NCBI GenBank assembly: GCA_019241425.1
Contig: JAFAXA010000293.1
Location: 1 to 50,582 of the forward strand
Direction: 5' to 3'
DNA length: 50,582 nucleotides
From: Acetobacteraceae bacterium
GTDB taxonomy: Bacteria; Pseudomonadota; Alphaproteobacteria; Acetobacterales; Acetobacteraceae
Shown here: positions 3,140-27,144 of the stretch, piece after piece
How positions within the stretch are numbered: position 1 is the stretch's first letter
Layout of the letters: each line of letters opens with the position of its first letter
The notes under the pieces: model-generated
The model's database searches: none
What the model saw: the letters and a program-made list of their open reading frames with translations, nothing else
Told to the model about the DNA's origin: nothing
Program-made: the position numbers and the translations under genes

Positions 3140-4108
3140 ATGCCGGGCCACGACCACCACCACGACCACCCCGGCCATCAGCACGGGCCGGGCGGTCATC
3201 ACCATCACGATCACGCGCCGCCGGCCGGGTTCGATGGCGCGTTCGCGATCGGCTCGGCGCTGAATGCGTGCTTCGTGCTGGCCGAGGTGGTGTTCGGATT
3301 CGCCGCGCATTCCGTCGCGCTGCTCGCCGATGCCGCGCATAACCTCGGCGACGTGCTCGGCCTGCTGCTCGCGTGGTGGGCGGCGTGGCTCGGCCGCCGG
3401 CATCCGACGCAGAGCCGCACCTATGGTTATGGGCGCAGCTCGATCCTCGCCTCGCTGACCAACGCCGTGGTGTTGCTGGTCGGCGTCGGCGGCATCACGG
3501 TGGAAGCGGTGCGGCGGCTGATCGAGGGCGTCCCCGCCGGTGACGTCGGCGGCCGGACGGTGATGCTGGTGGCGGCGGCGGGCATCGTCGTGAACGGCGG
3601 CACGGCGCTGCTATTCGCCAAGGGACGCGGGGGCGACCTCAACGTTCGCGGCGCATTTCTGCACATGGCGGCGGACGCCGCGGTTTCGGTGGGCGTCGTT
3701 TTGTCGGGCTTTGTCATTCTGACGACCGGATGGGCGTGGCTGGACCCGCTGGTCAGCCTTGGCATCGCGGCACTCATTCTGGTGTCGACCTGGAGCCTGC
3801 TGCGCGACAGCCTCAACCTGGCGATGGACAAGGTGCCGGAGAATGTCGACGCGGCGCGCGTGCAGGCGTTCCTCGCCGAACTGCCCGGCGTGACCGGGGT
3901 GCATGATCTGCACATCTGGGCGCTCAGCACGACGCACACGGCTTTGACCGTGCATCTGGTGCGGCCGAATGCGGGTACCGACGACGCGTTCGTCCATGGC
4001 GCCTGCCGGGACTTGCGGGAACGATTCGGCATCGGGCACGCAACGATGCAGATCGAGGACGGCGACCCGGCCCATTTCTGCACGTTGGCCCCGGCCGACG
4101 TCGTGTGA
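3140..4108 (+). CDS. CDF family zinc/cobalt/cadmium exporter (CzcD/ZitB-like)
   Basis: 322-residue cation diffusion facilitator that exchanges divalent cations, usually Zn2+, for protons at the inner membrane. The first 30 residues are a His-rich metal-binding tail (HDHHHDHPGHQH). Six membrane segments follow, with the transport-site motifs in ADAAHNLGD (TM2) and HMAADAAVSVG (TM5). The cytoplasmic C-terminal domain starts near VRLIEG/VPENVDAARV and includes GVTGVHDLHIWALS. ATG 3140 is preferred because the track ORF from 2903 runs back over the divergent LysE gene. No metal-responsive regulator is adjacent. Confidence 0.92.
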   Translation: MPGHDHHHDHPGHQHGPGGHHHHDHAPPAGFDGAFAIGSALNACFVLAEVVFGFAAHSVALLADAAHNLGDVLGLLLAWWAAWLGRRHPTQSRTYGYGRSSILASLTNAVVLLVGVGGITVEAVRRLIEGVPAGDVGGRTVMLVAAAGIVVNGGTALLFAKGRGGDLNVRGAFLHMAADAAVSVGVVLSGFVILTTGWAWLDPLVSLGIAALILVSTWSLLRDSLNLAMDKVPENVDAARVQAFLAELPGVTGVHDLHIWALSTTHTALTVHLVRPNAGTDDAFVHGACRDLRERFGIGHATMQIEDGDPAHFCTLAPADVV

Positions 4109-4126
4109 GCCGTCCGGCCGCCGCGC

Positions 4127-4684
4127 TCAGTTCGGGCGCGTGCCGGCCTCCTGCGGCTGTGCGGCGGCGCCGCGCCGCGCCTGCCAGAGCGCGACGAAGT
4201 CGACCGGCTGCAACATCACCGGCGGGAAGCCGCCCTCACGGGTGACGTCGGCCAGGATGTTGCGGGCGAACGGGAACAACAGCCGCGGGCATTCCACCAG
4301 CAAAACCGGCTCGACCGCGTTTTCCGGCACGTTGTTCAGCGTGAACACGCCGGCGAAGGACAGCTCGGCGACAAACACCGTCGCGCGCGGCGCGGCGGTG
4401 GCGCCGGCGGCAGCGGCGTCCTGCCCATTGCCGGCCGGGTTGGGACCTTCCTGCGCTTCGGCGCGCACCAGCAAAGTCACTTCGAAGACGTTCTGATTTT
4501 CGCCGAGCCGGCGGGCCTGCACGTCCAGATTGATGCTGACCAGCGGTTGACTGCGCAGCTGGGTATAAATCTGCGGCGCGTTCGGCACCTCGAAGGAGAG
4601 GTCCTTCACGTATTGGATATTGACCACGAGCGGCACCGGCGGCCCCTGCTCGGTGCCGGTCGGCGGGGTAGTGGCCTCGGACAT
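4127..4684 (-). CDS. secB: Protein-export chaperone SecB
   Basis: 185-residue cytosolic tetrameric chaperone that keeps preproteins unfolded and delivers them to SecA. Family landmarks are VNIQYVKDLSFEVPNAP near the N-terminus, FAGVFTLNNVPE in the middle and LLVECPRLLFPFARNILADVT followed by GGFPPVMLQPVDF at the C-terminus. Start ATG 4684 (MSEATTPPTG) gives normal SecB length. A Gly/Ala/Asn-rich insertion (PNPAGNGQDAAAAGATAA) lengthens the central loop relative to the usual ~155-165 residues. It converges with the CDF gene, 18 bases apart. Confidence 0.95.
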   Translation of the reverse strand: MSEATTPPTGTEQGPPVPLVVNIQYVKDLSFEVPNAPQIYTQLRSQPLVSINLDVQARRLGENQNVFEVTLLVRAEAQEGPNPAGNGQDAAAAGATAAPRATVFVAELSFAGVFTLNNVPENAVEPVLLVECPRLLFPFARNILADVTREGGFPPVMLQPVDFVALWQARRGAAAQPQEAGTRPN

Positions 4685-4766
4685 GCGACGCGCTCCATTC
4701 CATGCAACCCGGCCGATGGAGGCCGGGGCCGCGCCGGTAGCACACCGGGCGCTTCCCCGCCACCTT

Positions 4767-5321
4767 TCAGGGACGCCAAACGATGTCCGGCGGCGGCGGG
4801 GCGGTCGGGTCGGCGCGCAGCCACTCGCCATTCATGAGGCTTCGTCCCGTAAACGCCAGGATAAAACCCCAGTGGCTGACGACGAGCGTTGCGGACCAGT
4901 CCGGCAGCGCCGCCATTTCGGCCCGGAACAATGCCGCGCGGGCGATCACGCCTTCCGCCGCCTCGGTCGCCGCCGGCCACCACACCTCGTCGATCGTCGC
5001 GAAATCGCGGTCGGGCCAGGCCCGTTCAAGCGCGAGGCGGGGCGTGCCGACATCGCAGGTAAAGGCGTAGCGCTCGCGGACCAGCGGGTTGACGAACACG
5101 GGGATGCGGAGGCGAGACGCCACGGTTTCCGCCGTTTGCAAGGTGCGTGTGTAGGGTGACGTGATGATCCGGGCCAGGTTCTCGCCCCGCAAACCCTCGG
5201 CGGCCTGCCGGGCCTGGGCAAGGCCTTCGTCGGTCAGCGACGGATCGACGATCCCCGGATCGCGCCGTGTCCTCGTGAAATGGACGTTGAAGTGGCTTTG
5301 GCCGTGACGGAGCAGGATCAT
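4767..5321 (-). CDS. Histidine phosphatase family protein (phosphoglycerate mutase-like)
   Basis: 184-residue member of the histidine phosphatase superfamily. The N-terminal LLRHGQSHFN motif carries the phosphorylated His. TSPYTRTLQTAE provides the second Arg, RERYAFTCDVG follows, and VVSHWGF near residue 155 holds the second catalytic His. The family includes sugar-phosphate mutases and small phosphatases; the substrate is unknown. The track starts at a TTG (5342); the ATG at 5321 places RHG near the N-terminus as usual. It lies 82 bases upstream of secB on the same strand and may be cotranscribed with it. Confidence 0.85.
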   Translation of the reverse strand: MILLRHGQSHFNVHFTRTRRDPGIVDPSLTDEGLAQARQAAEGLRGENLARIITSPYTRTLQTAETVASRLRIPVFVNPLVRERYAFTCDVGTPRLALERAWPDRDFATIDEVWWPAATEAAEGVIARAALFRAEMAALPDWSATLVVSHWGFILAFTGRSLMNGEWLRADPTAPPPPDIVWRP

Positions 5322-7705: not shown

Positions 7706-9010
7706 TCAGCGGTTCACCAGCCGCGCCGGGATCAGGAAGATCAGGCCGGCCCCGAGCACGAGCGTCGCCGCGAGGAACAGGATCGCCGGTTCGGTTCCGC
7801 CGGTGGCGGTGGCGGTCCACCCGACAATGGCCGGGCCGAAGAAGCCCGACAGGTTCGCAAACGAGTTGAGCACGGCAAGGCCGCCCGCGGCGGCGACGCC
7901 GCTCAATAGCGCCGTAGGCAGATTCCAGAACAGCGGCGGAATGGCGAGGATGCCGGCGGTCGCGATGCACAGCGCCAGAAGCCCCATCGCCGGTTGATGC
8001 TCGAACACGACGGACAGCACCAGCCCGGCCGCGCCGGCAAGATAGAGGCATGCGAGATGCCAACGCCGCTCGCGCCGCAAATCGCTGCTGCGGCTCACCA
8101 GAACCATCGACACGATGGCGCAAAGGCTCGGGAGCGCCGCCATCAACCCGACGGTGAAAGGGTCGTTCACCCCCATGTTCACGATCAGCGTCGGCAGCCA
8201 GAAGTTCAGCCCGTACAGACACAAATTGCAGATGAAAAAGATGACCGTCATCAGGATGATCAATGGATTGGTCAGCGCCTGACCGAGTGTCAGCACCGGT
8301 TTGGTGGCCCGATCCCGCTCGAGATCGGCCGTGATCGCGGCTTTTTCGGCGGGCGATAGCCAGGCCGCCTCGCTCACCCGATCCTGCAACGCGAGCAACA
8401 GGACCACGCCGATGACGATGCTGGGCAGCGCCTCCAGCGCGAACAGCCATTGCCATCCGCTATAACCCCAGGCTCCCGAGCACGCCTTCAGGATCCATCC
8501 GGAAAGCGGCGCGCCGATGAAACCGGCAACGCCGAGGCCGATGAAGAACAGCCCAACAACGCGGCCGCGCCGCTGCGCCGGAAACCAGGAGCTGAGGTAA
8601 TAGATCACGCCGGGCATGAAGCCCGCCTCCGCCGCGCCGAGCGCGAAGCGCATGGCGTAGAACTGCCACGCCGTGTGCACGAGCAGCGTCAGCGCGGAGA
8701 TCACGCCCCAGGTGAGCATGATGCGCGCCAACCAGACCCGGGCACCAACCCGGTGCAGCATGAGGTTGCTCGGCAGCTCGAACAGGAAGTATCCGAAGAA
8801 GAACACGCCCGCACCGACGCCATAGACGGCGTCGCTGAAATTGAGGTCGGACGCCATTTGCAGCTTGGCAAAGCCGACATTCACCCGATCCAGATAGGCC
8901 GCGAGAAACGCCGCGATCAGGATCGGCACGATCCGCATCGTCGCCTTTCGATAGGCCCGGTCTGCGACGTCCGGCAGTTCTTCTTGCAACGAAACGGCGG
9001 CGCCGCTCAT
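7706..9010 (-). CDS. MFS transporter (ACS family)
   Basis: 434-residue, 12-TM carrier. It has AAYLDRVNVGFAKLQM in TM1, the classic ACS signature also seen in tartrate and phthalate permeases. ELPSNLMLHRVGARVW is the motif A region and FMPGVIYYLSSWFPAQRRGR the mid-domain signature. ATG 9010 overlaps the stop of the upstream amidohydrolase as ATGA, so translation is coupled. It probably imports an organic acid for this operon. It differs clearly in sequence from the carriers at 6354 and 10866, suggesting different substrates or directions. Confidence 0.9.
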   Translation of the reverse strand: MSGAAVSLQEELPDVADRAYRKATMRIVPILIAAFLAAYLDRVNVGFAKLQMASDLNFSDAVYGVGAGVFFFGYFLFELPSNLMLHRVGARVWLARIMLTWGVISALTLLVHTAWQFYAMRFALGAAEAGFMPGVIYYLSSWFPAQRRGRVVGLFFIGLGVAGFIGAPLSGWILKACSGAWGYSGWQWLFALEALPSIVIGVVLLLALQDRVSEAAWLSPAEKAAITADLERDRATKPVLTLGQALTNPLIILMTVIFFICNLCLYGLNFWLPTLIVNMGVNDPFTVGLMAALPSLCAIVSMVLVSRSSDLRRERRWHLACLYLAGAAGLVLSVVFEHQPAMGLLALCIATAGILAIPPLFWNLPTALLSGVAAAGGLAVLNSFANLSGFFGPAIVGWTATATGGTEPAILFLAATLVLGAGLIFLIPARLVNR

Positions 9011-14679: not shown

Positions 14680-16619
14680 CAATCGCCGGTCTCCGCCAGC
14701 GCCGAACCGAGCGGCTCGTCGAAGCGCAGCAGTCGTCCCGCATTGGCCATTCCGGCCAGGGTACTGAAATTGTGCACAACGGCCGCGACGATCGCTCCTT
14801 CAGGACCCAGCATGCCCGTGCCGGCGAGAGCGACGAGCAGGCACGTCCAACCAAGCCCCATCGCGACGTTCACATGGATGGTGCGGCGGCATCGCCGGCT
14901 CAACCGCAGACACGTGCCAAGGCGACGCAGATCGCTGGTCATCAACACGATGTCAGCCGAGGCGAGCGCAACGTCGGTGCCCTGGGCTCCCATCGCCACA
15001 CCGACGGCCCCCGCCTTCAGGGCAAGGCTGTCATTGATGCCGTCGCCCACGACCAGAGGTCGGTAGCCGTCCTCGAGTTCCCGAAGCACGCGGTCCATCT
15101 TCTGCTGGGGCAAGGCTTCGGCGTAGATCTCCGAAATGCCGAGCGCCTCCCCGATCCGGCGCGCGACGCGCTGGCGATCGCCGGTCAACAACATTTGGCG
15201 CCGCAAGCCGAGTGCCTTCAGTTCGGCGAGCGCGGCGCCCGCCTCGGGGCGAGGCTGGTCAGCCAACATGAGCCAGCCGAGGAAGGTCGTGCCACGGCTC
15301 ACGCCGACAATCGGTCCATCGTGCTCCGGCAGCGGGGTCGTGGGCACGCCGAGTTGCCCGAAAAGCTCCATCCGGCCCAGACACACGGTCTCGCCATTCG
15401 CAGTCGCGGTCAGCCCGAGGCCGCTGACTTCCTGCACATCCCCGAGCGGCAGCCGTTCCGGCGGCGACACAAGACCGGCCAATCCGCGGCTCACCGGGTG
15501 CGAACTGCGGGCACCGAGTGAGGCGGCAAGCCGCACGATCTCGGAGACCGGAACGGTTGCCGCGACCCGCAGGAGAGAAAGCTCCCCGAGCGTGACGGTG
15601 CCCGTCTTGTCGAACACCACGGACGTGACCTCGGCCGCGTGCTCGAGAAAGGCCGACCCTTTGATCAGGATGCCGTGACGGGCGGCAACGGCAATCGCGG
15701 CGATGGCCGTTGCCGGGGCTGCCAGCACCAGTGCGCAGGGACAGGCGGCGACCAGAACCGCCAACATCGCCTGCGAGGATTGCGTCGTGAGCCACGCAGC
15801 AACCGCGATGAGCACGATCAGCGTGATATAGGGCCCGGCAAAACGTTCGAGGATCCGCGTCACCCGGGGCTTCGCCTGCTCCGCTTTCTCCATCAACTGA
15901 ATGATCTTGCCGAGCGTGGTCTCCTGCCCGACGCGGTTCACCCGCATGATCAACGGCCCGCGCAGGTTGATCGATCCGGCCAGCACCGGATCATTGTCCG
16001 AAACATCCGCCGGCACCGATTCACCGGTCAGCGACGCAGTATCCAGGCTGGACCGGCCGCTGATAATGGTGGCGTCCACCGGTGCGCGATCGCCGGCGCG
16101 AAGCTCGATCCGATCGCCGACGCGGATATCAGCCGTCGGCACCTCGGCGACGGTGCCGTCCGCACCGATCCGGCGTGTCGTCGTCGAGACCAGCCGGCTC
16201 ATGGCGCGTATCGCCTCCTGGGACCCGAGGAGGCTCCGTTCTTCCAGCACGTGACCCACTGTCATAACGATCGGAAGGATGGCCGCGGTCATCAGGTCGC
16301 CCGTCGCCCAGGCCGCGATCAATGCGATCGCGACCAGCAGGTCCGTCATGCCGTGCAAGCTCGGCTGAACGACGCTGTTCCAGCCTGCCGACAGGACCGG
16401 AACGGCGACAAGCGCGGCGGCGCCGGCGGCGACCAGGTCCGCGATATACCGCTCGTCGGGAAGCAGGATCCGCCACAGCACGGCGATGCAGAGCAAGCCG
16501 ACCGCCGCCATCGCCAGGAATAGGCGCAGACCGAGCAGCCATTTGGCCCCCGGCCCGAGCAGAGACAGATCGTCGGGATCGAGGCCGCGGGTCTCCGGAG
16601 CGCTTGCGGATACGCTCAT
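14679..16619 (-). CDS. P1B-type cation-translocating ATPase without HMA domain
   Basis: 646-residue membrane pump. Visible landmarks are TGES at 198-201 (actuator), the intramembrane CPC at 293-295, DKTGT at 337-341 (phosphorylated Asp), the SSHP motif at 372-375 and GDGIND at 525-530. The last helices carry VVHNFSTLAGMANAGRLL. The N-terminal HMA metal-binding domain common in CopA and ZntA is absent and replaced by a short hydrophilic stretch. CPC suggests a soft or transition metal, but the HN..S end does not match the classical Zn or Cu signatures I know. Coupled by ATGA to the upstream SPFH gene. Confidence 0.9.
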   Translation of the reverse strand: MSVSASAPETRGLDPDDLSLLGPGAKWLLGLRLFLAMAAVGLLCIAVLWRILLPDERYIADLVAAGAAALVAVPVLSAGWNSVVQPSLHGMTDLLVAIALIAAWATGDLMTAAILPIVMTVGHVLEERSLLGSQEAIRAMSRLVSTTTRRIGADGTVAEVPTADIRVGDRIELRAGDRAPVDATIISGRSSLDTASLTGESVPADVSDNDPVLAGSINLRGPLIMRVNRVGQETTLGKIIQLMEKAEQAKPRVTRILERFAGPYITLIVLIAVAAWLTTQSSQAMLAVLVAACPCALVLAAPATAIAAIAVAARHGILIKGSAFLEHAAEVTSVVFDKTGTVTLGELSLLRVAATVPVSEIVRLAASLGARSSHPVSRGLAGLVSPPERLPLGDVQEVSGLGLTATANGETVCLGRMELFGQLGVPTTPLPEHDGPIVGVSRGTTFLGWLMLADQPRPEAGAALAELKALGLRRQMLLTGDRQRVARRIGEALGISEIYAEALPQQKMDRVLRELEDGYRPLVVGDGINDSLALKAGAVGVAMGAQGTDVALASADIVLMTSDLRRLGTCLRLSRRCRRTIHVNVAMGLGWTCLLVALAGTGMLGPEGAIVAAVVHNFSTLAGMANAGRLLRFDEPLGSALAETGD

Positions 16620-17689
16620 TCGTCCGGTCCCGGGACGATGACGGATTGTCCGTTACGCATATCCACGGTGGTCACGTGACCGACCTTGCGCAGGATGGCG
16701 CCGATGTGGTCGCGGTAATACTGACCGAGCAGACTCTCGCGGTTGGCCGCGTTCAGTTCCGCATGCAACAGACCGATATCGGCGGTCTCCGCCGACGCGG
16801 CGCGGATTTGTTCTTCCGCCGCTGCTTGCGCTTCGCTGCGACTGCGGTCATGCGCGCGCTCGGCTTCCTGCAGGGTGCGCGCGGCATCCGTGCGCGCCGC
16901 TGCCACGGTTTGGTCGGCGATCTGGGAGGCCGTCAACACCCCGTCGAAGGCCGCCTTGGCCATCGGCGGCAGCAACGCCACCATGTCGATACGCGTAACC
17001 TCGACCCCCAGGCCGGCGCCGTTATTCTGCAAAGCCACCAAGCGTTGGTTGACGCTCCTCACCAGTTCCCCACGCAGCGCCTGCCGCCGGGTGGCAAGCT
17101 CGCCGCTCACCGCCGCGTCCGTGTCTTCCGGGCGCGCGACGAGAAAATCGTCGAGGTCGTGGCCGGAAACCGTCGCCACCGCGCTCGCGCGGTAGATCCG
17201 CTGCAAGGCAGGCTCTACATGCTCGCGCGCGAGAACGTAGTCGCCGGGCTCCGCAACACGATAATAGAGCGTCGCTTCGTAGCGGACGACACTGCCATCC
17301 GCGGTGAGAAAATATTGGCCGTTCCAGGCGTCCTTCTGATGCCGGAGCGTGACCACGTCATCCGGCTGACGCACCTCGAAATCGGTCTCGGCTGACGGAC
17401 CGAGGGAGGCGGGCATCGCGATCTTGAGCGCAATCTGGTGATCGTAGGCGGGCAGCAACGTGATCTGCTCGATCGGGTCCGGCCATGCGAGAACCAAACC
17501 CGCATCCTGAACGCGTTCGATCTGGCCGAAGCGCTGCACCACCGCGCGGCTATCCGGCGGTACTTGCCGCACATTGCCGACCGCCCAACCGGCCGCCAGC
17601 AGCAGCACAGCGACAAGACACATGCGAAATCCGAGGCCCACCATGTCGGCGGCGTTGAACCTGGCGCCCGCCTGAAGAACGGGTCTCAC
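16616..17689 (-). CDS. SPFH/band 7 membrane protein (HflK/HflC-like)
   Basis: 357-residue protein with one transmembrane helix near residues 20-40 and then an SPFH (band 7) domain beginning VPPDSRAVVQRFGQIERV. It continues with a coiled-coil stretch rich in Ala, Glu and Arg (VAAARTDAARTLQEAERAHDRSRSEAQAAAEEQIRAA). HflK/HflC proteins form large periplasm-facing ring assemblies that modulate FtsH. GTG 17689 overlaps the upstream stop (GTGA), and its own stop overlaps the ATPase ATG. It is the third SPFH protein of the operon. A role in scaffolding the ATPase is inference. Confidence 0.82.
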   Translation of the reverse strand: MRPVLQAGARFNAADMVGLGFRMCLVAVLLLAAGWAVGNVRQVPPDSRAVVQRFGQIERVQDAGLVLAWPDPIEQITLLPAYDHQIALKIAMPASLGPSAETDFEVRQPDDVVTLRHQKDAWNGQYFLTADGSVVRYEATLYYRVAEPGDYVLAREHVEPALQRIYRASAVATVSGHDLDDFLVARPEDTDAAVSGELATRRQALRGELVRSVNQRLVALQNNGAGLGVEVTRIDMVALLPPMAKAAFDGVLTASQIADQTVAAARTDAARTLQEAERAHDRSRSEAQAAAEEQIRAASAETADIGLLHAELNAANRESLLGQYYRDHIGAILRKVGHVTTVDMRNGQSVIVPGPDE

Positions 17690-18741
17690 CGGAGTTGGCG
17701 TCCTATCGGATCGGACGCCGGTCCCGGCGCCCCCTCGGCCCGCCCGACCTGCAATTCGGAAATCGGCGGCGAATGCGATGGCTCGGATTCCGGCGCGGAT
17801 GGGCCGGGCGCTGCCGGCAGTTCCTCGACAAGCGCCCGGAACGGTTGCGCATCGGTGCGCAGGATGAGGCGCGTCTTCGGACCGATCGTCGCGCCGAGCG
17901 TGTCGAGCGACCGCACCAAGGTGTAGAGTTGAGGGTCAACAGCATACGCCTCGGCATGGATCGTCGCGGCCTTTTCCCGCCCTTTCGCCTTGATTTCGGC
18001 AACTTCCTGCTGCGCCTGCGCGCCAATCAGGCGGGCGTCACGCAAAGCGTCAGACCGGATGGCGGCGGCGGCGCGCAATCCTTCCGCCGTTCGTTGGGCG
18101 GCCACCGTTTCACGCTCCGCTCGCATGCGGGCGACCGTGGCCGCGAGCGTTTCCGCCGGCAGGCTGAGGCGCTCCACCCCCGTTTGAACGATTCGGATGC
18201 CGTACGTGTCCAGGACCTGCTGATAAAGGCTGGCCTGTAGCTGTTGTTCGAACGCCGCCAGCCGCGCCTCGTGCCGATCCGCGTTGATGAGATTGGTGAG
18301 GCTGAAATTGCTGGCCGTCAGTTGCAGCGCTGAGCCGAGAAAGCTGCGAAGCTGACGGGCGATGTCGTCCGGATCGATGTGGCCCGTCCGCAAAAACTGC
18401 TTGATGTGTGCAGGATCACGGTCGACTTGCCAGGCGACATAGGCCTGCACGAGGATGCGCAATCCCTCTCGCGTGCCGACATCCTGCAACCCGCTCGACG
18501 TCGTACGCAGCCGCAGATCGACGGGGATCGTGCCCTCGATCGGCGCCGGCGCTTTCCATGCCAGGCCGGGCTCGGTCAGCACGCGAACCGGTTTTCCGAA
18601 CTGGGTCACAACAACGGCACGATTGGGCGCCACCATCAACAACGCGGAGGTCGCGCCGGCGGCGCACAGGAACGCCACGGCGGCCAAGATGCGCAACGCG
18701 GGGTTCAGCTTTCCGCTTCGACCTGCGGTCTGCGCGCTCAT
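17686..18741 (-). CDS. SPFH/band 7 membrane protein (HflC-like)
   Basis: 351-residue protein with an N-terminal helix (ILAAVAFLCAAGATSALLMVA) and an HflC-like band 7 domain (VVVTQFGKPVRVLTEPGLAWKAP, IPVDLRLRTT, YVAWQVDRDPAHIKQFL). A helical arm follows (MRAERETVAAQRTAEGLRAAAAI), then a Pro/Ser/Glu-rich C-terminal tail. The RAERE...AE pattern of the arm is the classical HflC feature. It overlaps both neighbours by four bases. The genuine FtsH partners hflK-hflC are normally beside hfq/hflX or degP; this copy is in a different context and is likely a paralogue. Confidence 0.86.
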   Translation of the reverse strand: MSAQTAGRSGKLNPALRILAAVAFLCAAGATSALLMVAPNRAVVVTQFGKPVRVLTEPGLAWKAPAPIEGTIPVDLRLRTTSSGLQDVGTREGLRILVQAYVAWQVDRDPAHIKQFLRTGHIDPDDIARQLRSFLGSALQLTASNFSLTNLINADRHEARLAAFEQQLQASLYQQVLDTYGIRIVQTGVERLSLPAETLAATVARMRAERETVAAQRTAEGLRAAAAIRSDALRDARLIGAQAQQEVAEIKAKGREKAATIHAEAYAVDPQLYTLVRSLDTLGATIGPKTRLILRTDAQPFRALVEELPAAPGPSAPESEPSHSPPISELQVGRAEGAPGPASDPIGRQLR

Positions 18742-20636
18742 GGCTCCCTCTCCCCCGACGCGGCGCGAGGTTGCAACCCGTCTCGGGCCCCGCCCGGGGG
18801 TCGCAGATCGACCACGGGCAGTCCCGTGCCGCTCAATCGATGGTCCAGGATTTCGAGCGGGACATTCGCCAATGCCGCCTTGATATCGGTGAAATAGCGC
18901 TCGAGCAGAAACGGCTGGCTTGCTGCGCGGTACGGACGATCATCGGCAATGATCTCGGTCAGACCAGTTTGAGCGGCGCTGATGCTCTCCTGGCTCAGCG
19001 CCGATGCTTCATCGATGGCGCTATGGGCATCCCGCTCGGCAACGCTTCGTGTGGTCTCGGCGCGTCCCCGTTCCGTGGCAATCGAACTCGTCGCGGCGAT
19101 TTCCGCCGCTTGGACATGACGATACGCTAAGGCGGCACCACTGGGCGGGTGAATGGCCTCGATCGTCACCGCAACAATGTCGAGGCCGGAGTCGAGCCGA
19201 TCCAGGGCTTGCTGCAGACCCGCTCGCAGACTGGCCGCGATGATGCCGTGATTCTCGCCGAGTACTGTCGGCAGTGTGCTCGTGGCAAGATAGTCGGCGA
19301 GCAAGCGGCCGGATAGTGAGTGCACCAACACCTCCGGGTCCGCCGTTCGATAGAGCGCGGCTCGCGCAGCGTCATCGGTCAGCCCGACACGATAAAGCAC
19401 CCGGACGGTCACGCTCACGGCCTGAAAGCTTGGTTGCGACCGATCGCCGGCAGCGATCAGATACGGAGCCTCGCCGGGTGTTTGTGAATCCCACAGCCGG
19501 TTGGCGCTCGGCGGCGGATCGCCCTCGGCTGCCGAGGCGTCGGCGACAGGGGAGTCGGCGCCGGCATCGCTGTCCGCGTTGCTGATGAGAACCGCGTGCA
19601 GTGTGCCGTATTCGACGTGGCGGACCGCGCCGAATGGCCGCGGGAGCACCAGATGCAGACCAGGCTGCAGGATCGCGACAACCCGACCAAATCGCTCGTA
19701 GGAGCCCCGTTCATTCAGATCGATCCGCGTGACCCCGGTCAAACCCCAGCAACACAGGAGCATCAACAACAAGACCGGTGCCGCCGCCGCTCGCATGAAG
19801 CGCAACGCCCAGCTCCGGGTGAAGTCCACGCCGAACTCCGATCGCACCACGACGGCCGCGCGTGCGGGCGAGAGCAGTCGGCCACAGAGAAAGCCCGCGA
19901 CAACGCTCGCAATTGGCGCGCGAGCGGCCGTGTGGTCGCGAGATGGCAGGAACCACGATCCCAAAGCCCTGAGCACGAGTTCCAGGCAAACGGCGAGCAA
20001 AGCGGCGGAGATGGCGGAACGACTCCAGTAGACGAGTGCGACGTCCGGAGCGTCCGTCAATGCGAGAAGTGAAGTTGCGAAGAGGCAGCCCACCGGGAGA
20101 AACAGCAAGCCGCCGAGATCGACGGTTTCGGGCAGTTGCTCCGCTGGAATCGCTGCAAGGGAGCGCTGCGCTATGAGGCACGGTGTCGCCAGTATCAGCA
20201 AGGCGCTTGCGACGGCGAAGCCTCCGGGTGATCCCAGCGCTTGCGGAAGGTGAGCACCAGGGGGCCAGTCGCTGATGATCGCCAACGCGGCCGCTCCGGC
20301 GAAAAGGAGAACCACCGCCATCCCCGAGCCCTCAGCAAAGCGCGATTTCACAGAGACCGGCAGACCACGCCGGCGGGCAAGCGCGGCAGCGGCACAGGCA
20401 ACAAGCCCCAGCGCGGCAAGCAGCAACGAGGCCACACCGGCGCCGGCCAAACCGAAGGCGCGGAACGCGTCAAGCCATGGCAGTTTGCAGCGGGCGAGCA
20501 AGGCGGACATCGTACCCGCGGCGGCGAGATACACGAAACCGAGTGTCATCAAGGGGCGAACCAGCCGCGCGGCGACGACGGGCTGCGAAGGAGGCGGAGG
20601 CTCCGGCCGGGGAGACGCTGTGTGGTCTGCGGTCAT
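18738..20636 (-). CDS. Polytopic membrane protein with C-terminal SPFH/HflK-like domain
   Basis: 632-residue protein. After a Pro-rich N-terminus come about six hydrophobic segments over roughly residues 25-300 (for example LMTLGFVYLAAAGTMSALL, VAGFLCGRLLSPARAAVVV, APVLLLMLLCCWGL). Then a band 7-like domain begins GSYERFGRVVAILQPGLHLVLPRPFG, with an acidic low-complexity insertion (SDAGADSPVADASAAEGD) and a final helical arm. Ordinary HflK has one helix, so this is a fused or expanded form. ATG 20636 is used because the TTG at 20735 lies inside the neighbouring phosphoesterase. First gene of the five-gene operon. Confidence 0.78.
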   Translation of the reverse strand: MTADHTASPRPEPPPPSQPVVAARLVRPLMTLGFVYLAAAGTMSALLARCKLPWLDAFRAFGLAGAGVASLLLAALGLVACAAAALARRRGLPVSVKSRFAEGSGMAVVLLFAGAAALAIISDWPPGAHLPQALGSPGGFAVASALLILATPCLIAQRSLAAIPAEQLPETVDLGGLLFLPVGCLFATSLLALTDAPDVALVYWSRSAISAALLAVCLELVLRALGSWFLPSRDHTAARAPIASVVAGFLCGRLLSPARAAVVVRSEFGVDFTRSWALRFMRAAAAPVLLLMLLCCWGLTGVTRIDLNERGSYERFGRVVAILQPGLHLVLPRPFGAVRHVEYGTLHAVLISNADSDAGADSPVADASAAEGDPPPSANRLWDSQTPGEAPYLIAAGDRSQPSFQAVSVTVRVLYRVGLTDDAARAALYRTADPEVLVHSLSGRLLADYLATSTLPTVLGENHGIIAASLRAGLQQALDRLDSGLDIVAVTIEAIHPPSGAALAYRHVQAAEIAATSSIATERGRAETTRSVAERDAHSAIDEASALSQESISAAQTGLTEIIADDRPYRAASQPFLLERYFTDIKAALANVPLEILDHRLSGTGLPVVDLRPPGGARDGLQPRAASGEREP

Positions 20637-20721
20637 TATGCGTGCCGGGGGGCGATCGTCCAAAAACGATGCGCTGCCACCCCGAGCTTGGGACGGCAGC
20701 GCAAGGTTAGATTTCCGCGTG

Positions 20722-22647
20722 TCAGTGGAAGTCAAACATGTCCATCAGATTGCTGATCGCCGGGCTGTTGATCGGTGCGTAGGGGTTGGAGGAGTTCGTG
20801 ATCGGATTCGGAAGATTGTCGCGCCCGTTCTCCGACACCGGAGGAAGCCGCCAGTTCTTTTCCACGAACTTCAGGAACGAGACATGATCGGCGTAGGCGT
20901 GCGATATGCGGCCGCCGCGTGAATAGGGCGACACCACGATGGCCGGGATCCGTGTGCCGTCACCGAAAAAATCGAGCGGCTGGATATAGCCCGAATCCCA
21001 ATACCCACCGCCCTCGTCGAAGGTAACGATGATCGCCGTATGGGTCCAAAGGTCGCGGTTATGCTCCGTGTGTTCGATGATCCTGCGCGTGAACGCCTCG
21101 AAGAGATCGAGCTTCGATGATGCCGGATGACCATCCAGCAACCCATCCGGCTTCACGATCGAGACGGCCGGGAGATGACCCGAACTGATATCCGCTTCCA
21201 GATCCGTCACATCGGCCAGATGCGCCTGGCGCTGGGCCGCATCCGTCATGATGGCGGTCTCGTAGAGGAAAGGATTGCAGATGTTGCAGTAGAGTGACCC
21301 GAGTTCGCTGTTCGGGTCCTTGAGATAGAAGTTCCAGCCGGCCCCATAGTATTTCCATGACAGGCCGGCATCGTTCAGCGTGTCGCCGATCGTGCGCACG
21401 GGCGAGGGCGGGATCGTGAAGGTGGAGGTATTGACGGTGCCGTCACCGAAATATCCGGGATTATAGTTATTGAGAAGGTAGTAGGCGCCCTGTTTGCACC
21501 TCGTTGGCGGCGTATAGGGCAGGCTCGCGAGATAGCTTACGACAGCGCCGACGCCGGGCTGGTTCATGTCGGAGCAGTTGCTGTAGCTGCCGCCGCTGTA
21601 ACCGTCCTGCGTATAGTAGTTGTTTGTGCCAGCTTGCGGGTTCGGGTTTTCGATTTCGTTCGTTGGCGGCGTTGCAATGTTGCCCTGGCCGTCCGTGTAG
21701 TAGATGGCGAGGCCCGTGCCGAGGGCAATGTGATTGGCGCCCGTGCCGCCCATGATCGACTGGTGGAAGTTGTCGCTCATCGTGTAGGTGTCGGCGAGGT
21801 GCTTGAACCACGGCGCATCGCCCTTCGCCATGTTCCAGAAGCCCATAGAGGTGGAACCTTCACCCGTCGTTTGGTTGGTGAAGTTTGCCGGCTGCGGCTT
21901 GCCGTTGCTGCCCGCCCCGATCGTCGTTTCCACCCAGGGGAACAGCGAATTGGTGCAGCCGGACGGGTTCGCCGCCGTGATCGTTGCGGGGGAGCAGTTC
22001 ACCTGCTGCCACATCTGATAGAATCGATGCACGGGGCTGGCGGTGTAGCTGTCATAGGGCAGATTCGGGCCGCTCAGTTGAAACGGACCGTTTGGCAGGG
22101 CCGTCGCGTTCGGAATGCGCGTGTCGACGGAGTCGCTGGGCAGTCCGGTCGCGCCCGTCGTGAGCAGCTTGTAGTCACGCGTCGGCAAGCCATTCTGGAT
22201 CAAAGTTTCCGCCGCGGTCGCAGCGGCGAGCGTTGCGAATGGCGGCGGATTTTCGTCGCTCGCCGCTGTGGGAGCCCCGTCCGTCATCGCGGGCGGCAGC
22301 ACGGAATAGAGCGTCTGTCCGTCCGGGCTGAGCTGGTAGGTGGTGCGGTCCGAGGCTTCCTTCTGCGCCGCTTTTGCGAAGTTCGGGCCGGGAGTCCCGT
22401 CGGCGTTCACGATGCCCTCCGACAGGAGATTGTACACCGTTTGACCAGCCTGGGGCGTGTAGGTGGCGAACACGTGATCAAACGTGCGATTCTCGCCGAT
22501 AATCAGGATGACGTGCTCGATCGGCGTGGTCGGTGTGCGAGCGGCCGACTGTGCGAACGCTGGGCCTACGGTGAGCGATGTCACCGCCAAGGTCGCAAGT
22601 CCGCGACCGAAGGGGTGATTGGATTGCGGCAATAAACGCCTTCTCAT
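20722..22647 (-). CDS. Secreted phosphoesterase (phospholipase C/acid phosphatase AcpA family)
   Basis: 641-residue exported enzyme of the phosphoesterase family (PF04185 type), which hydrolyses phosphomonoesters or phospholipids outside the cytoplasm. A signal peptide with Arg-rich start (MRRRLLPQ) ends near GPAFAQS. Catalytic and metal motifs are IIGENRTFDHVFATY near the N-terminus, SDNFHQSIMGGTGANH in the middle, then PDGLLDGHP and TFDEGGGYWDSG. ATG 22647, with GGAGGG eight bases upstream, is preferred to the TTG used in the track. It ends 86 bases before the SPFH operon start on the same strand, so readthrough is possible. Confidence 0.88.
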   Translation of the reverse strand: MRRRLLPQSNHPFGRGLATLAVTSLTVGPAFAQSAARTPTTPIEHVILIIGENRTFDHVFATYTPQAGQTVYNLLSEGIVNADGTPGPNFAKAAQKEASDRTTYQLSPDGQTLYSVLPPAMTDGAPTAASDENPPPFATLAAATAAETLIQNGLPTRDYKLLTTGATGLPSDSVDTRIPNATALPNGPFQLSGPNLPYDSYTASPVHRFYQMWQQVNCSPATITAANPSGCTNSLFPWVETTIGAGSNGKPQPANFTNQTTGEGSTSMGFWNMAKGDAPWFKHLADTYTMSDNFHQSIMGGTGANHIALGTGLAIYYTDGQGNIATPPTNEIENPNPQAGTNNYYTQDGYSGGSYSNCSDMNQPGVGAVVSYLASLPYTPPTRCKQGAYYLLNNYNPGYFGDGTVNTSTFTIPPSPVRTIGDTLNDAGLSWKYYGAGWNFYLKDPNSELGSLYCNICNPFLYETAIMTDAAQRQAHLADVTDLEADISSGHLPAVSIVKPDGLLDGHPASSKLDLFEAFTRRIIEHTEHNRDLWTHTAIIVTFDEGGGYWDSGYIQPLDFFGDGTRIPAIVVSPYSRGGRISHAYADHVSFLKFVEKNWRLPPVSENGRDNLPNPITNSSNPYAPINSPAISNLMDMFDFH

Positions 22648-23057
22648 CTCGTGTTCCCTCCGCATGCGCAATCCACCGCACGCTCATCACGTGCTTGCGG
22701 ACTCACATTGATGTTTGCCGAGCGTATGTTGCCTTGCCTATATTCCAAACCCCGAAAGGTCAACCACCCCGTTGCGCGAAAATAGCGTATGAAACTTGAA
22801 TTTCCGGTGTATGTCGGATTGATGACGCGCACGGTGACCATCAAATGTCACGCCATTGACGTAGAACGGCATGGGCCGGACGGGCTACACGCCGCCGAGT
22901 TTCGACGAGGGGCGGATGTCCGACATCGCATTGCAGCGTGGTGTCACAGGAGCGTCGCCACGTGGCAGACTGCCTTGCGCAACGGCCGTGCAAGCCGGAC
23001 TTGCGAAGCGGCAGATGAACGGTCAGCGGCGGTTGAGACGCCCACGGTTGGTGTGAC
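22648..23057. other. Intergenic region between phosphoesterase and HAD-ATPase genes
   Basis: 410 bases between divergent genes without a convincing ORF; the short track ORFs here lack family features. It includes an AT-richer stretch upstream of the phosphoesterase and an inverted repeat GTGAC-N8-GTCAC at 22834-22851 that could be a regulator site. The resemblance of that repeat to a Pho box is poor, so I do not call it one. Promoters for both genes presumably lie here. Confidence 0.4.
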
Positions 23058-24770
23058 ATGCATTACGCCGTACTCGCTACCGACTATGACGGCACCATCG
23101 CCCATGACGGTGTTGTGGACGACGCAACACTCGACGCGCTGGAACGCCTGAAGGCCGGACAGCGTCGGCTGGTCCTTGTCACTGGCCGCGAATTGCCCGA
23201 CCTCCAGCGCGAAATGCCGCGCCTCGACCTGTTCGACCGCGTTGTCGCGGAGAATGGTGCTCTGCTTTACACGCCAGCGACGCGGGAACAGAAACCGCTG
23301 GGCGAGGCACCGCCCGCCGCCTTCGTCGAGCGGTTGCGCGCGCTCGAGGTATCGCCCCTCTCCGTCGGGCGGGTCATTGTCGCGAGTTGGGAACCCAACG
23401 AGGGCAAGGTGCTCGACGCCATCCGCGACCTCGGGCTCGAGTTGCAGATCATCTTCAACAAAGGCGCGGTTATGGTGCTGCCCGCCGGGGTCAACAAGGC
23501 AACCGGTCTCCTCGCCGCGCTCTGCGATCTTGGCTTGTCTCCGCTTGACTGCGTGGGGGTCGGTGACGCCGAAAACGACAACGCGTTCCTGGAAGCAAGC
23601 GGATTCTCGGTTGCGGTCGCCAACGCCCTGCCCGCACTCAAGGAGCGGGCGACGTTCGTAACGGAGGGTCAGCGCGGGGCGGGTGTCGCGGAACTGATCG
23701 ACCGCATGCTCGCGGACGATCTGGAGGGGCTCGATACGCATGAGCCGCGCCAAAGTGTCCTGATCGCAGAACCGCGCGACGGCGATGACGGTCCGGCGTT
23801 GCACCTGCAGCCGAAACGGGAAACCCTGCTGCTCGCGGGCGCTTCGGGAGGCGGCAAGTCGACGCTGACGTTGGGACTGTTGGAGCGGCTAGGCGACGCC
23901 GGCTTTCAGTACTGCGTCATCGACCCGGAAGGCGACTACGAGGGCAGCCTAGCCGCCAGCTACGTGGGCGACGCCAGGCAGCCGGCCGACGTGTCGGCAG
24001 TGATGGGAGAGTTGCGCAAGCCTCAGCAAAGCGTGGCCGTCAATCTGCTCGGCGTTCCGCTACAGGACAGGCCGGCTTTCTACGCCGCCCTGCTTCCGGA
24101 GCTGGCGCGGTTGCGCGAGACCACCGGCCGCCCGCATTTCGTTGTGGTCGACGAGGCGCATCATCTGCTGCCGACTGAATGGAATCCCCCGGCGGGAGAT
24201 TTTTCGGCGAGCCTCCAAGGCACGATGTTCGTGACGGTGCATCCGGAGCATCTCTCGCCGCGCGTGCTCGATCGCGTGGACCGGATGCTGGTGATCGGCC
24301 GCGATCCGGCGAAGGCGGCCGGCGCGTTCTGCGGCAGCCGCGGCTTGCATTGCCCCGCACCCGACGTGAAGCTGGAAACCGGGGAGGTGATGACGTTCGC
24401 CGCCGGTGATCCCGATATTCGCGTGATGCGGGTCGTGCCCGGCAACGGCACGCGGCAGCGGCACGTGCGCAAATACGCGGAAGGGAAGCTCGGTGAGGAT
24501 AAGAGCTTCTATTTTCGCGGGCCGGACCGCCGGCTCAATCTGAGGGCGCACAATCTCACGCTCTTTGTGCAGATCGCCGAGGGCGTCGATGCCGAGACAT
24601 GGGAGCATCACCGCCGGGCGGGCGATTTCTCCGAATGGATCGGATCCGCCATCAAGGATGGCGAACTCGCGCGCGCAATCGCCGCCATCGAGCAAAGCGA
24701 AGCGGCGACGGACGACTCACGACGCCAAATCCAGGAAGCAATCGAGGCCAAGTACACCGCACCGGCCTAA
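23058..24770 (+). CDS. HAD-IIB phosphatase fused to HerA-like P-loop ATPase
   Basis: 570-residue two-domain protein. Residues 1-220 are a Cof-type HAD hydrolase with motif I DYDGTIAHDG at 9-18, VTGRE at 41-45, a cap domain, and motif IV VGVGDAENDNAFL at 167-178. After a short linker, residues 250-570 carry Walker A GASGGGKST at 261-269, DPEGDYEG at 289-296 as in HerA/VirB4-type ATPases, and Walker B FVVVDEAHH at 361-369. HAD-IIB enzymes dephosphorylate sugar phosphates or trehalose/sucrose phosphate; the ATPase half may be regulatory or a motor. ATG 23058 fits. Stands alone on this strand. Confidence 0.85.
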   Translation: MHYAVLATDYDGTIAHDGVVDDATLDALERLKAGQRRLVLVTGRELPDLQREMPRLDLFDRVVAENGALLYTPATREQKPLGEAPPAAFVERLRALEVSPLSVGRVIVASWEPNEGKVLDAIRDLGLELQIIFNKGAVMVLPAGVNKATGLLAALCDLGLSPLDCVGVGDAENDNAFLEASGFSVAVANALPALKERATFVTEGQRGAGVAELIDRMLADDLEGLDTHEPRQSVLIAEPRDGDDGPALHLQPKRETLLLAGASGGGKSTLTLGLLERLGDAGFQYCVIDPEGDYEGSLAASYVGDARQPADVSAVMGELRKPQQSVAVNLLGVPLQDRPAFYAALLPELARLRETTGRPHFVVVDEAHHLLPTEWNPPAGDFSASLQGTMFVTVHPEHLSPRVLDRVDRMLVIGRDPAKAAGAFCGSRGLHCPAPDVKLETGEVMTFAAGDPDIRVMRVVPGNGTRQRHVRKYAEGKLGEDKSFYFRGPDRRLNLRAHNLTLFVQIAEGVDAETWEHHRRAGDFSEWIGSAIKDGELARAIAAIEQSEAATDDSRRQIQEAIEAKYTAPA

Positions 24771-24826: not shown

Positions 24827-25042
24827 TTATCGCGCCTGATCGGGAATTGCGGCACGCGCTGCTCGTTCGAGGCTATCTCTGACGGTCGGCTGACGCGAAC
24901 CGTCCCGGGCGCCGCGAGATCGTGACAGCCTGACGGCTTGTGGGTTGCTCTCCGATGGCGAGTCGCCTTCCCAATCAATGTCGGCGTCATCAGGCGTCGA
25001 GAACTCCACGTGCGAGAGGATGCTGCGTATTGGCTCGGTCAT
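24827..25042 (-). CDS. Small hypothetical protein coupled to the glycosyltransferase
   Basis: 71-residue acidic-then-basic protein starting MTEPIRSILSHVEFSTPDDADIDWEG; no family recognised and no hydrophobic segment. The ATG at 25042 overlaps the glycosyltransferase stop as ATGA. A GGAG lies nine bases upstream, which argues for a real coupled gene. The track's 115-residue version starts inside the glycosyltransferase. A small accessory protein of the glycolipid pathway is possible but not shown. Confidence 0.5.
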   Translation of the reverse strand: MTEPIRSILSHVEFSTPDDADIDWEGDSPSESNPQAVRLSRSRGARDGSRQPTVRDSLERAARAAIPDQAR

Positions 25043-26136
25043 GAACGTTTCTCCAATTCGGTTTGCGCAATGGGAGGACGGGCCGGTACGACGGCCAAGT
25101 TCCTGAGAAATGCTTCGGCGCAGGCTCGCCACGAGAACCGTTCTGCGAAGCTGCGGCAAGCCGAGCGGTTGCACCCCAGCGCCGCCAAGCAGGCGCGGCG
25201 CAAATTCCAGTCGGTCGCGCCGACCTCTGGATGCCCGGTCAGCAGATCGATCGGCCCGGTGACCGGAAAGGCCGCAACCGGAGTACCGCAGGCGAGCGCC
25301 TCCAGCAGCACGAGGCCGAATGTGTCGGTGAGCGACGGAAACACAAACAGGTCGGCCTGCGCGTACGCACTGGCGAGCGCCGCTCCATGGCGCTCGCCCA
25401 CGAAAACCACCTTCGGGTAATCCCGTCGGAGGGATGCGAGCTGCGGCCCGTCGCCGACCACCATTTTCGTTCCGGGCAGATCCATATCGAGAAACGCCCG
25501 GATGTTCTTTTCGACCGCGATCCGGCCCACATAAACGCTGAGGGGACGCTCCGGCCCGTCTGATCTGTGCGGCTCCGGTCGGAACAGGTCGATGTCGACC
25601 CCGCGCGACCAGGAACGGATGTTGCGAAAGCCGCGCGTCACCAACTCACGGCGGAGGCTTTCGGCGGCCACAAGCGTGCCTTGCGCCGGGCGATGGAACC
25701 GCCGTAACACAGCGTAGCTGAAACGGACCGGCGCACCGGTGCGCGCCCGCAGATATTCGGGGAAGCGGGTGTGAAACGCCGTCGTGAACGGCATGCCGAC
25801 TCGGAGCGCCCAAGCCCGGGCAGCCCAGCCAAGCGGCCCTTCCGTCGAGATATGCAGCGCGTTCGGTGCGAAGGCCTGGAGCATGGCATTCAGGCGACGG
25901 CGCGGCTTCAGGGCAAGGCGGATCGAGGGATAGCTCGGCAGCGGAACCGTAACGAAACGATCCGGTCCGATCACCTCGGCCACATGACCCATCTTGCGCA
26001 GTTCGTGGAGAACGGTGCGCATCGTGCGGACGACACCGTTCACCTGCGGTTCCCAGGCGTCAGAAACGATCAGGATACGCAGCTTTCCGCCCGCGGCTTG
26101 TTCGGCGAGATCAAGTGACCGGGGCTGGTCGAGCAC
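25039..26136 (-). CDS. GT4 family glycosyltransferase
   Basis: 365-residue GT-B fold glycosyltransferase. The N-terminal half opens LRILIVSDAWEPQVNGVVRT, the hallmark of mannosyl/glucosyl transferases acting on lipids in the MgtA/PimB group. The C-terminal half has the GT4 nucleotide-sugar motif YVGRIAVEKNI, VVGDGPQL and the ADLFVFPSLTDTFGLVLLEALACGTPV signature. GTG 26136 is my best start, overlapping the upstream gene by 26 bases; the Shine-Dalgarno is weak, so the start is uncertain. Coupling to an LpxH-like gene is a common proteobacterial arrangement for making glycosylated diacylglycerol lipids. Confidence 0.85.
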   Translation of the reverse strand: MLDQPRSLDLAEQAAGGKLRILIVSDAWEPQVNGVVRTMRTVLHELRKMGHVAEVIGPDRFVTVPLPSYPSIRLALKPRRRLNAMLQAFAPNALHISTEGPLGWAARAWALRVGMPFTTAFHTRFPEYLRARTGAPVRFSYAVLRRFHRPAQGTLVAAESLRRELVTRGFRNIRSWSRGVDIDLFRPEPHRSDGPERPLSVYVGRIAVEKNIRAFLDMDLPGTKMVVGDGPQLASLRRDYPKVVFVGERHGAALASAYAQADLFVFPSLTDTFGLVLLEALACGTPVAAFPVTGPIDLLTGHPEVGATDWNLRRACLAALGCNRSACRSFAERFSWRACAEAFLRNLAVVPARPPIAQTELEKRS

Positions 26137-26938
26137 GCGCGCGTTCCGTCGGTGAGCTGAAAAACGAAAGCTGGTTTTCGGCGACCCAGTCGAGCAATTC
26201 GAGGCGGCCGTCCTCATGCTCCACCAGTGCCGTGCAGCTTTCGACCCAATCGCCGTCATTGACATACAGCACGCCGCCGATGTCTCGCATCTGGGCATGA
26301 TGAATGTGGCCGCAGACGACGCCGTCATAGCCGCGCCGCTGCGCTTCGCCGGCGAGAGCGGCCTCGAACCGATCGATCGCCTTCACCGCGCCTTTCACCT
26401 GCCGCTTCGCCCAGGCGGAAAGGGACCAGTAGGGATAGCCGAGTCGCCGCCGCGCAGCGTTGAACCATCGATTGACGACGAGCGCCGCCGTGTACGCGCC
26501 GTCGCCGAGAAGCGCCAGAAACTTTGCGTAGCGCACCACGCTGTCGAACTCGTCGCCATGCATGATCAGCAGCTTGAGCCCGATTACGGTCTGGTGCGTT
26601 GCCTCCTTGCGGAGCTTGATCCCGGCGACCTCCAAATTGAGCGGCAGCCATGCGCGGAACATCTCGTCGTGATTGCCGGGAATGTAGACGATCTCTGTGC
26701 CCGCCTTGGCATGCGAGAGTAGAAGGCGAAGCACTTCGTCGTGTCCCTCGTCCCAGTACCAGGACCGGCGCAGCCGCCAGCCGTCGAGAATGTCGCCGAC
26801 CAGATACAGATGTTCGCACCGAACGCTGCCGAGGAAATCCGCCAGAAAGTCGGTCCGGCAGCCTTTCGTTCCCAGATGCGTATCGGACAGAAAGATGGCA
26901 CGATAGCGCCGCACCCGAGGTGGCGGAATGGCGTTCAT
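26111..26938 (-). CDS. LpxH-like metallophosphoesterase (UDP-2,3-diacylglucosamine diphosphatase family)
   Basis: 275-residue calcineurin-type phosphoesterase. Metal-binding motifs occur in order: FLSDTHLGTKGC (DxH), LVGDILDGW (GD), IPGNHDEMF (GNHD), IMHGDEFDSV and VVCGHIHHAQMR. This is the LpxH/YbbF-like group in which members hydrolyse the pyrophosphate of UDP-diacylglucosamine, though many annotated members act on other substrates. A true lipid A role is uncertain because the gene sits with a glycosyltransferase. ATG 26938 (MNAIPPP) is chosen over an upstream GTG; neither has a strong ribosome site. Confidence 0.82.
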   Translation of the reverse strand: MNAIPPPRVRRYRAIFLSDTHLGTKGCRTDFLADFLGSVRCEHLYLVGDILDGWRLRRSWYWDEGHDEVLRLLLSHAKAGTEIVYIPGNHDEMFRAWLPLNLEVAGIKLRKEATHQTVIGLKLLIMHGDEFDSVVRYAKFLALLGDGAYTAALVVNRWFNAARRRLGYPYWSLSAWAKRQVKGAVKAIDRFEAALAGEAQRRGYDGVVCGHIHHAQMRDIGGVLYVNDGDWVESCTALVEHEDGRLELLDWVAENQLSFFSSPTERARARPAPVT

Positions 26939-27144
26939 CCGGGGGCAGATCCGATTCGCTTCGTTTCCGAGCCGCACGGTGCTGATACGCGCGATTGCGA
27001 TTTATGCACGTGAACCTTGAATGACGCGGGTGCAATTGCCACGCCCGGTCGGACCGTCATCGCATTGACCCGGTATCTTCACCAGGCCGTCATGCCTCCA
27101 ATGTCATGCTGCGAGTTTGGCCGGCGCACCGCGTGCGGCTTCGC

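Follow-up and report, generated by a model that had tools for sequence, protein, structure and literature searches.

The window, i.e., the entire 50,582-nucleotide stretch of Acetobacteraceae DNA analyzed here, is contig 128 of a 350-contig, 3.58-Mb genome. Its forward strand contains, at positions 23058 to 24770, a single ATG-started ORF for a protein of 570 amino acid residues, whose nearest homologues come from members of the Acetobacteraceae. The GC content at the three codon positions of this ORF (0.74/0.45/0.78) is coding-like, and the GC content of the gene, 65.7%, compares to 65.9% for the window. The initial annotation described this gene as a phosphatase of the haloacid dehalogenase-like (HAD) type fused to a HerA-like ATPase, overlooking a third, C-terminal domain at about residues 465 to 570. 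The features of the gene and its two neighbors are as follows:

23058-24770, plus strand: the whole gene, encoding the 570-aa HAD / HerA-like ATPase / OrfY-like protein (ORF; full-length homologues; AlphaFold model with pLDDT 92.4 and pTM 0.81)
23058-23720, plus strand: HAD-IIB (C2B-capped) phosphatase domain, residues 1-221 (Pfam Hydrolase_3, E = 1.9e-25; NCBIfam HAD-SF-IIB above its cutoff; Foldseek match to PH1421, PDB entry 1wr8, E = 1.9e-17, TM score by target 0.83-0.84)
23082-23090, plus strand: HAD motif I, D9-Y-D11, nucleophile and acid/base (invariant in 68 homologues)
23496-23498, plus strand: HAD motif III Lys, K147 (invariant)
23565-23579, plus strand: HAD motif IV, D170-A-E-N-D174, Mg binding (D170, N173, and D174 invariant)
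23745-24437, plus strand: compact HerA-like P-loop ATPase domain, about residues 230-460 (DUF87; profile matches to HerA chains; Foldseek)
23838-23861, plus strand: Walker A motif GASGGGKS, residues 261-268 (G261, S263, G266, and K267 invariant in 68 homologues)
23922-23942, plus strand: HerA-type second-strand motif DPEGDYE, residues 289-295 (D289 nearly invariant, P290 to Y294 invariant)
24141-24164, plus strand: Walker B motif VVVDEAHH, residues 362-369 (D365, E366, H368, and H369 invariant)
24450-24767, plus strand: C-terminal helical domain, OrfY/DUF5752-like, residues 465-570 (invariant residues; 4cso profile; DUF5752; Foldseek)
20725-22671, minus strand: divergently transcribed gene of the phospholipase C/acid phosphatase type (domain search)
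25042-26328, minus strand: gene for a GT4 glycosyltransferase (domain search)

The motifs of both enzymes (D9-x-D11, K147, and D170-x3-D174 in the HAD domain; GASGGGKS, DPEGDYE, and VVVDEAHH in the ATPase) are located where the initial annotation had placed them. They are far above chance, judging from the Hydrolase_3 E value and the invariance or near-invariance of the catalytic, Walker A, and Walker B residues in the 68 full-length homologues, among which D9, D11, K147, D170, N173, and D174 never vary. In an alignment of 58 rows, D9 and D11 are found in 57, the remaining row being gapped, and Thr/Ser42, K147, D170, and D174 are found in all 58. The N-terminal domain passes the cutoff of the NCBIfam HAD-IIB model TIGR01484 (80.4 bits versus 41.8), and the strands and helices of the C2B cap are present in the AlphaFold model, with 1wr8 as the best fold match. 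The original assignment to a HAD domain with all motifs was correct. Its narrower designation as Cof-type does not hold, as the score for TIGR00099, 79.1 bits, is below the cutoff of 137. The nearest equivalog model, archaeal phosphoglycolate phosphatase (TIGR01487; E = 1.2e-24), also falls short of its cutoff (87.4 versus 122.75 bits). The NCBIfam profile search returned no match to the OtsB model, and canonical trehalose-6-phosphate phosphatase structures rank below PH1421 and the Cof types in the Foldseek output. PH1421 is the closest solved relative of this domain by both profile (4.3e-23) and fold (1.9e-17). Enzymes of the PH1421/TA0175 type (1wr8 and 1kyt) have the same core fold, the same cap type, and all four catalytic motifs, but show 26% identity to the window protein, whose HAD domain is fused to two additional domains. 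Another difference from PH1421 is in the cap, where the FNKGAVMVLP stretch contains family-specific residues (N134, M139, and P142 are invariant and K135 nearly so) that presumably set the substrate choice.

The middle domain matches DUF87, the central domain of HerA, in all 16 sampled family members at E values of 0.01 or lower (best, 5.8e-10); the window copy alone scores 19.6 bits, which is under the cutoff of 23.2. Comparison of the family profile with the PDB retrieved the HerA chains 8j4u (1.8e-5) and 8wiv (1.7e-4). A Foldseek search with the AlphaFold model found HerA 8wiv (4.5e-12) and the SIR2-HerA structure 8woc (6.0e-10), and HerA was the sole non-HAD fold among the best 50 rows. 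A P-loop kinase or ABC-type identity was rejected, as matches to ABCB1 and APS kinase span only the P-loop region and Foldseek gives HerA. With the HerA proteins, including those of the SIR2-HerA and DUF4297-HerA systems, this domain shares the RecA-like core, Walker A, the DPEGDY motif in the second strand, and the Asp-Glu pair of Walker B. The HerA architecture also includes a HAS barrel and a helix bundle (PMC11291478), both of which are absent from the AlphaFold model of the window protein. Residues 1 to 221 of the model are taken up by the HAD domain, with ∼30 residues between it and the Walker A strand. The segment between the second strand and Walker B (residues 295 to 361), which in HerA contains a four-helix bundle, consists of two strands and two helices (H312-319 and H335-356). 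The window protein further differs from HerA in having a HAD domain at its N terminus and a different C-terminal domain. As modeled, the middle domain is HerA-like without being a HerA, and the fusion combines a genuine HAD-IIB phosphatase with an ATPase of the HerA-like type in which two of the HerA features tested, the HAS barrel and the four-helix bundle, are absent. Free-standing compact DUF87 ATPases of 475 to 560 aa, also encoded in Acetobacteraceae (loci L104 to L107), are 33 to 41% identical to it over the P-loop region. They have the same DPEGD motif and likewise lack the large insertion, but contain neither the HAD nor the OrfY-like domain.

The C-terminal domain is conserved as well as the catalytic ones, with a mean column identity of 65% and with R468, H469, Y473, N499, H518, and W527 invariant in the 68 homologues. 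Its profile matches OrfY of Thermoproteus tenax (4cso; 3.3e-5), and DUF5752 is matched by 22 of 25 family members (best, 2.6e-6), the window copy scoring 19.5 bits against a cutoff of 23. A separate model of this domain (pLDDT 89.9) has 4cso as its top Foldseek match, with a probability of 0.97 and a TM score by query of 0.57 but an E value of 0.37. Each of these matches is weak alone; the profile, DUF5752, and fold comparisons agree, and the domain probably resembles OrfY/DUF5752. OrfY carries this domain unit twice, as seen from two profile stretches, and has neither the HAD nor the ATPase domain. In the genome of the window, in eight genomes from other phyla, and in the class-level set, each genome has a single copy of the C-terminal domain, always within a long frame that matches the fusion, as expected of a dedicated module. 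The sole candidate for a stand-alone copy, L108 (G017:C64, about positions 597 to 761, minus strand), was discarded, as it appears to be a short leftover of a degraded fusion. In L108, the start of the HAD domain (residues 1 to 24) runs into the C-terminal end (residues 506 to 545, with a stop); it is probably a decayed, internally deleted fusion copy.

The presence of the HAD and HerA-like ATPase domains in a single chain is borne out by the sequence, the profiles, the AlphaFold model, and Foldseek. The sugar phosphate substrate, the DNA or protein motor role, and the regulated or signaling function put forward in the initial annotation are hypothetical, and the DNA-handling modules of HerA are missing. 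Full-length homologues are encoded in at least 80 genomes from at least 9 phyla or candidate phyla, which excludes an assembly error joining two genes, the possibility that the initial annotation had singled out. In a scan of GTDB genomes, nearly all of the best 80 of 140 loci matched the whole query, with 45 to 63% identity, and the genomes involved include finished or well-assembled ones, such as those of Calothrix PCC 7716 and Thermosporothrix. The protein has a three-domain anatomy, both of its enzymes retain their catalytic residues, and the whole is conserved as a unit. It is found in about 5 of 100 sampled genomes of the Acetobacteraceae and in 4 of 289 in its class. In a quick tree, the phylum labels require 17 changes, compared to a minimum of 8 and a mean of 44 for shuffled labels, so that the sequences cluster by phylum, albeit imperfectly. 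This pattern is consistent with an ancient family that has undergone some transfer, although such a tree proves no single event. A plasmid of Nostoc sp. C052, pC052_B, encodes a HAD-only copy of 221 aa (L097, positions 8001 to 8666), which shares 81% identity with the Nostoc fusion and ends precisely at the boundary between the HAD and ATPase domains. The ATPase is therefore not always retained; this copy may be decaying. In a close Acetobacteraceae homologue (L012, positions 3174 to 4878), the C-terminal domain shifts frame after residue 500, through either an error in sequencing or a genuine frameshift.

In the window, the fusion gene stands alone between two minus-strand genes, and none of its neighbors is a recognizable stress gene. 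In Acidisphaera (L007), a homologue of the phospholipase C/acid phosphatase-type product (75% identity) is encoded ∼2.4 kb downstream of the fusion. On the other side, the GT4 glycosyltransferase gene overlaps a gene for an LpxH-like metallophosphoesterase (positions 25042 to 26977, minus strand), and the two probably form a single lipid or glycan operon. Farther away, positions 16616 to 20735 (minus strand) contain three consecutive Band_7/SPFH (HflK/HflC-like) genes; one of the products, of 665 aa, has a long, apparently multispanning N-terminal region ahead of its Band_7 domain at residues 337 to 558. All-against-all clustering of neighboring ORFs and Pfam tallies revealed no conserved operon partner beyond common families; the large "clusters" located inside the fusion gene were antisense shadow ORFs of the fusion itself. 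Plasmid copies, annotated as "HAD-IIB family hydrolase" or "HAD hydrolase family protein," are found near genes for Dps, BON, rubredoxin, and hemerythrin; for USP, CBS, and phosphoketolase; or for Mn catalase and hemerythrin. On two Aminobacter plasmids, the fusion is accompanied by genes for trehalose-6-phosphate synthase, amylo-alpha-1,6-glucosidase, and a GT4 glycosyltransferase. These two loci are near identical and the trehalose genes are confined to them, so a trehalose operon was rejected as the general context. The stress- and carbohydrate-related setting of the annotated plasmid copies is a lead only. A phage or defense origin was also rejected: viral and phage collections contained no full-length copy, immediate neighbors gave only scattered matches to sigma-54 activator and helicase models, with no recurrent defense genes, and the PADLOC models matching the fusion protein did so weakly (mad8, 4.4e-8; HerA, 3.9e-4).

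The active sites of both enzymes are preserved in nine phyla and kept in one chain, and therefore both activities are probably used together. Among solved structures, compact archaeal small-molecule phosphatases (1wr8 and 1kyt) come closest to the HAD fold, and the HerA chains of HerA and SIR2-HerA come closest to the ATPase fold. The best explanation, to which we assign a probability of roughly one-half, is that the protein acts in the cytoplasm as a stress-associated phosphatase of small molecules, with a HerA-type ATPase as its platform. As regards its substrate class, oligomerization, ATP coupling, stress role, and regulation, we infer the following. The HAD-IIB domain would dephosphorylate a small metabolite, probably a sugar phosphate or an organic acid phosphate, through the usual aspartyl-phosphate mechanism with D9 as the nucleophile, D11 as the acid/base, the participation of K147, and Mg bound at D170 and D174. 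The HerA-like domain, devoid of the DNA-handling modules of true HerA, can be expected to bind and hydrolyze ATP and probably to form a ring or another oligomer. In DUF4297-HerA, the HerA hexamer has the effector enzyme docked on its HAS face, and assembly switches the activities on (PMC11291478). In the fusion, the HAD domain stands in place of the HAS barrel, on the side where the partner enzyme docks. The oligomer would then position several HAD domains where HerA complexes have the HAS barrel and docked partner enzymes, and phosphatase activity or assembly could be coupled to cellular ATP; the OrfY-like domain would serve in regulation or in the binding of a partner. Counting against this explanation are the lack of an operon partner or substrate clue, the absence of stress genes around the fusion in the window, and the HAD-only Nostoc copy.

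The Nostoc copy would be easier to accommodate if the chain simply combined two uncoupled enzymes, with the HAD domain being a housekeeping phosphatase of the phosphoglycolate type. The nearest equivalog, TIGR01487, agrees with that assignment but stays below its cutoff, and conservation over the whole length in nearly all copies, together with the dedicated C-terminal domain, argues for coupling, which makes this arrangement unlikely. Membership of the P-loop domain in a superfamily of DNA motors brings up a nucleic acid enzyme, in which the HerA-like domain would move along DNA or RNA and the HAD domain would remove terminal phosphates, similarly to polynucleotide kinase/phosphatase. Fusions of HAD and P-loop domains for end processing do exist, as in PNKP. 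However, this role appears quite improbable: the C2B-capped HAD domain has its closest relatives among metabolite phosphatases, the ATPase lacks both the HAS barrel and the helix bundle seen in HerA, its P-loop is of the HerA type and not the kinase type, and no DNA repair operon is conserved around the fusion.

There is likewise little chance that the fusion is a single-chain anti-phage or conflict protein, an analogue of SIR2-HerA or DUF4297-HerA with HAD as the effector. The closest ATPase folds do come from HerA of defense complexes, the PADLOC matches point the same way, and the presence of the fusion in the family is patchy, but immediate neighbors are not defense genes, no full-length phage or viral copy was found, and the copies diverge evenly across phyla and cluster by phylum. 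Comparably slim are the prospects for a phosphatase acting on trehalose-6-phosphate or a related glycoside phosphate in the synthesis of stress solutes, in which the OrfY-like domain would be a partner module of the trehalose pathway. The Aminobacter plasmid neighborhoods and the appearance of trehalose-6-phosphate phosphatases farther down the Foldseek list favor this assignment, whereas the synthase adjacency is limited to two near-identical loci, OtsB is not matched, and the canonical structures score below PH1421 and the Cof types.

All three kinds of domains are known, and proteins of this family are already present in the databases under a generic name. The original view of the HAD-ATPase pairing as unusual was right in that no description of the three-part architecture (HAD/HerA, OrfY, DUF5752) was found in the open-access literature; the fusion is nevertheless widespread under its plain database label. 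An extension of the small-molecule phosphatase reading, which we offer tentatively and consider rather doubtful, is that a DNA-free ring of the HerA family serves as an ATP-gated scaffold for a metabolic phosphatase within a single chain. Such proteins would constitute a new class of energy-sensing enzymes across phyla, with the OrfY-like domain as a recruited dedicated regulator.

HerA-type ATPases are familiar in two roles, as motors acting at DNA ends and as scaffolds for anti-phage enzymes. If the interpretation favored here is correct, a conserved HerA-type fold without the DNA-related parts, fused to a metabolite phosphatase, would extend the roles of this motor fold to the control of metabolism. 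A function would thereby be provided for a family now concealed by the name "HAD-IIB family hydrolase," and the fusion would give a bacterial context to the orphan OrfY/DUF5752 fold.
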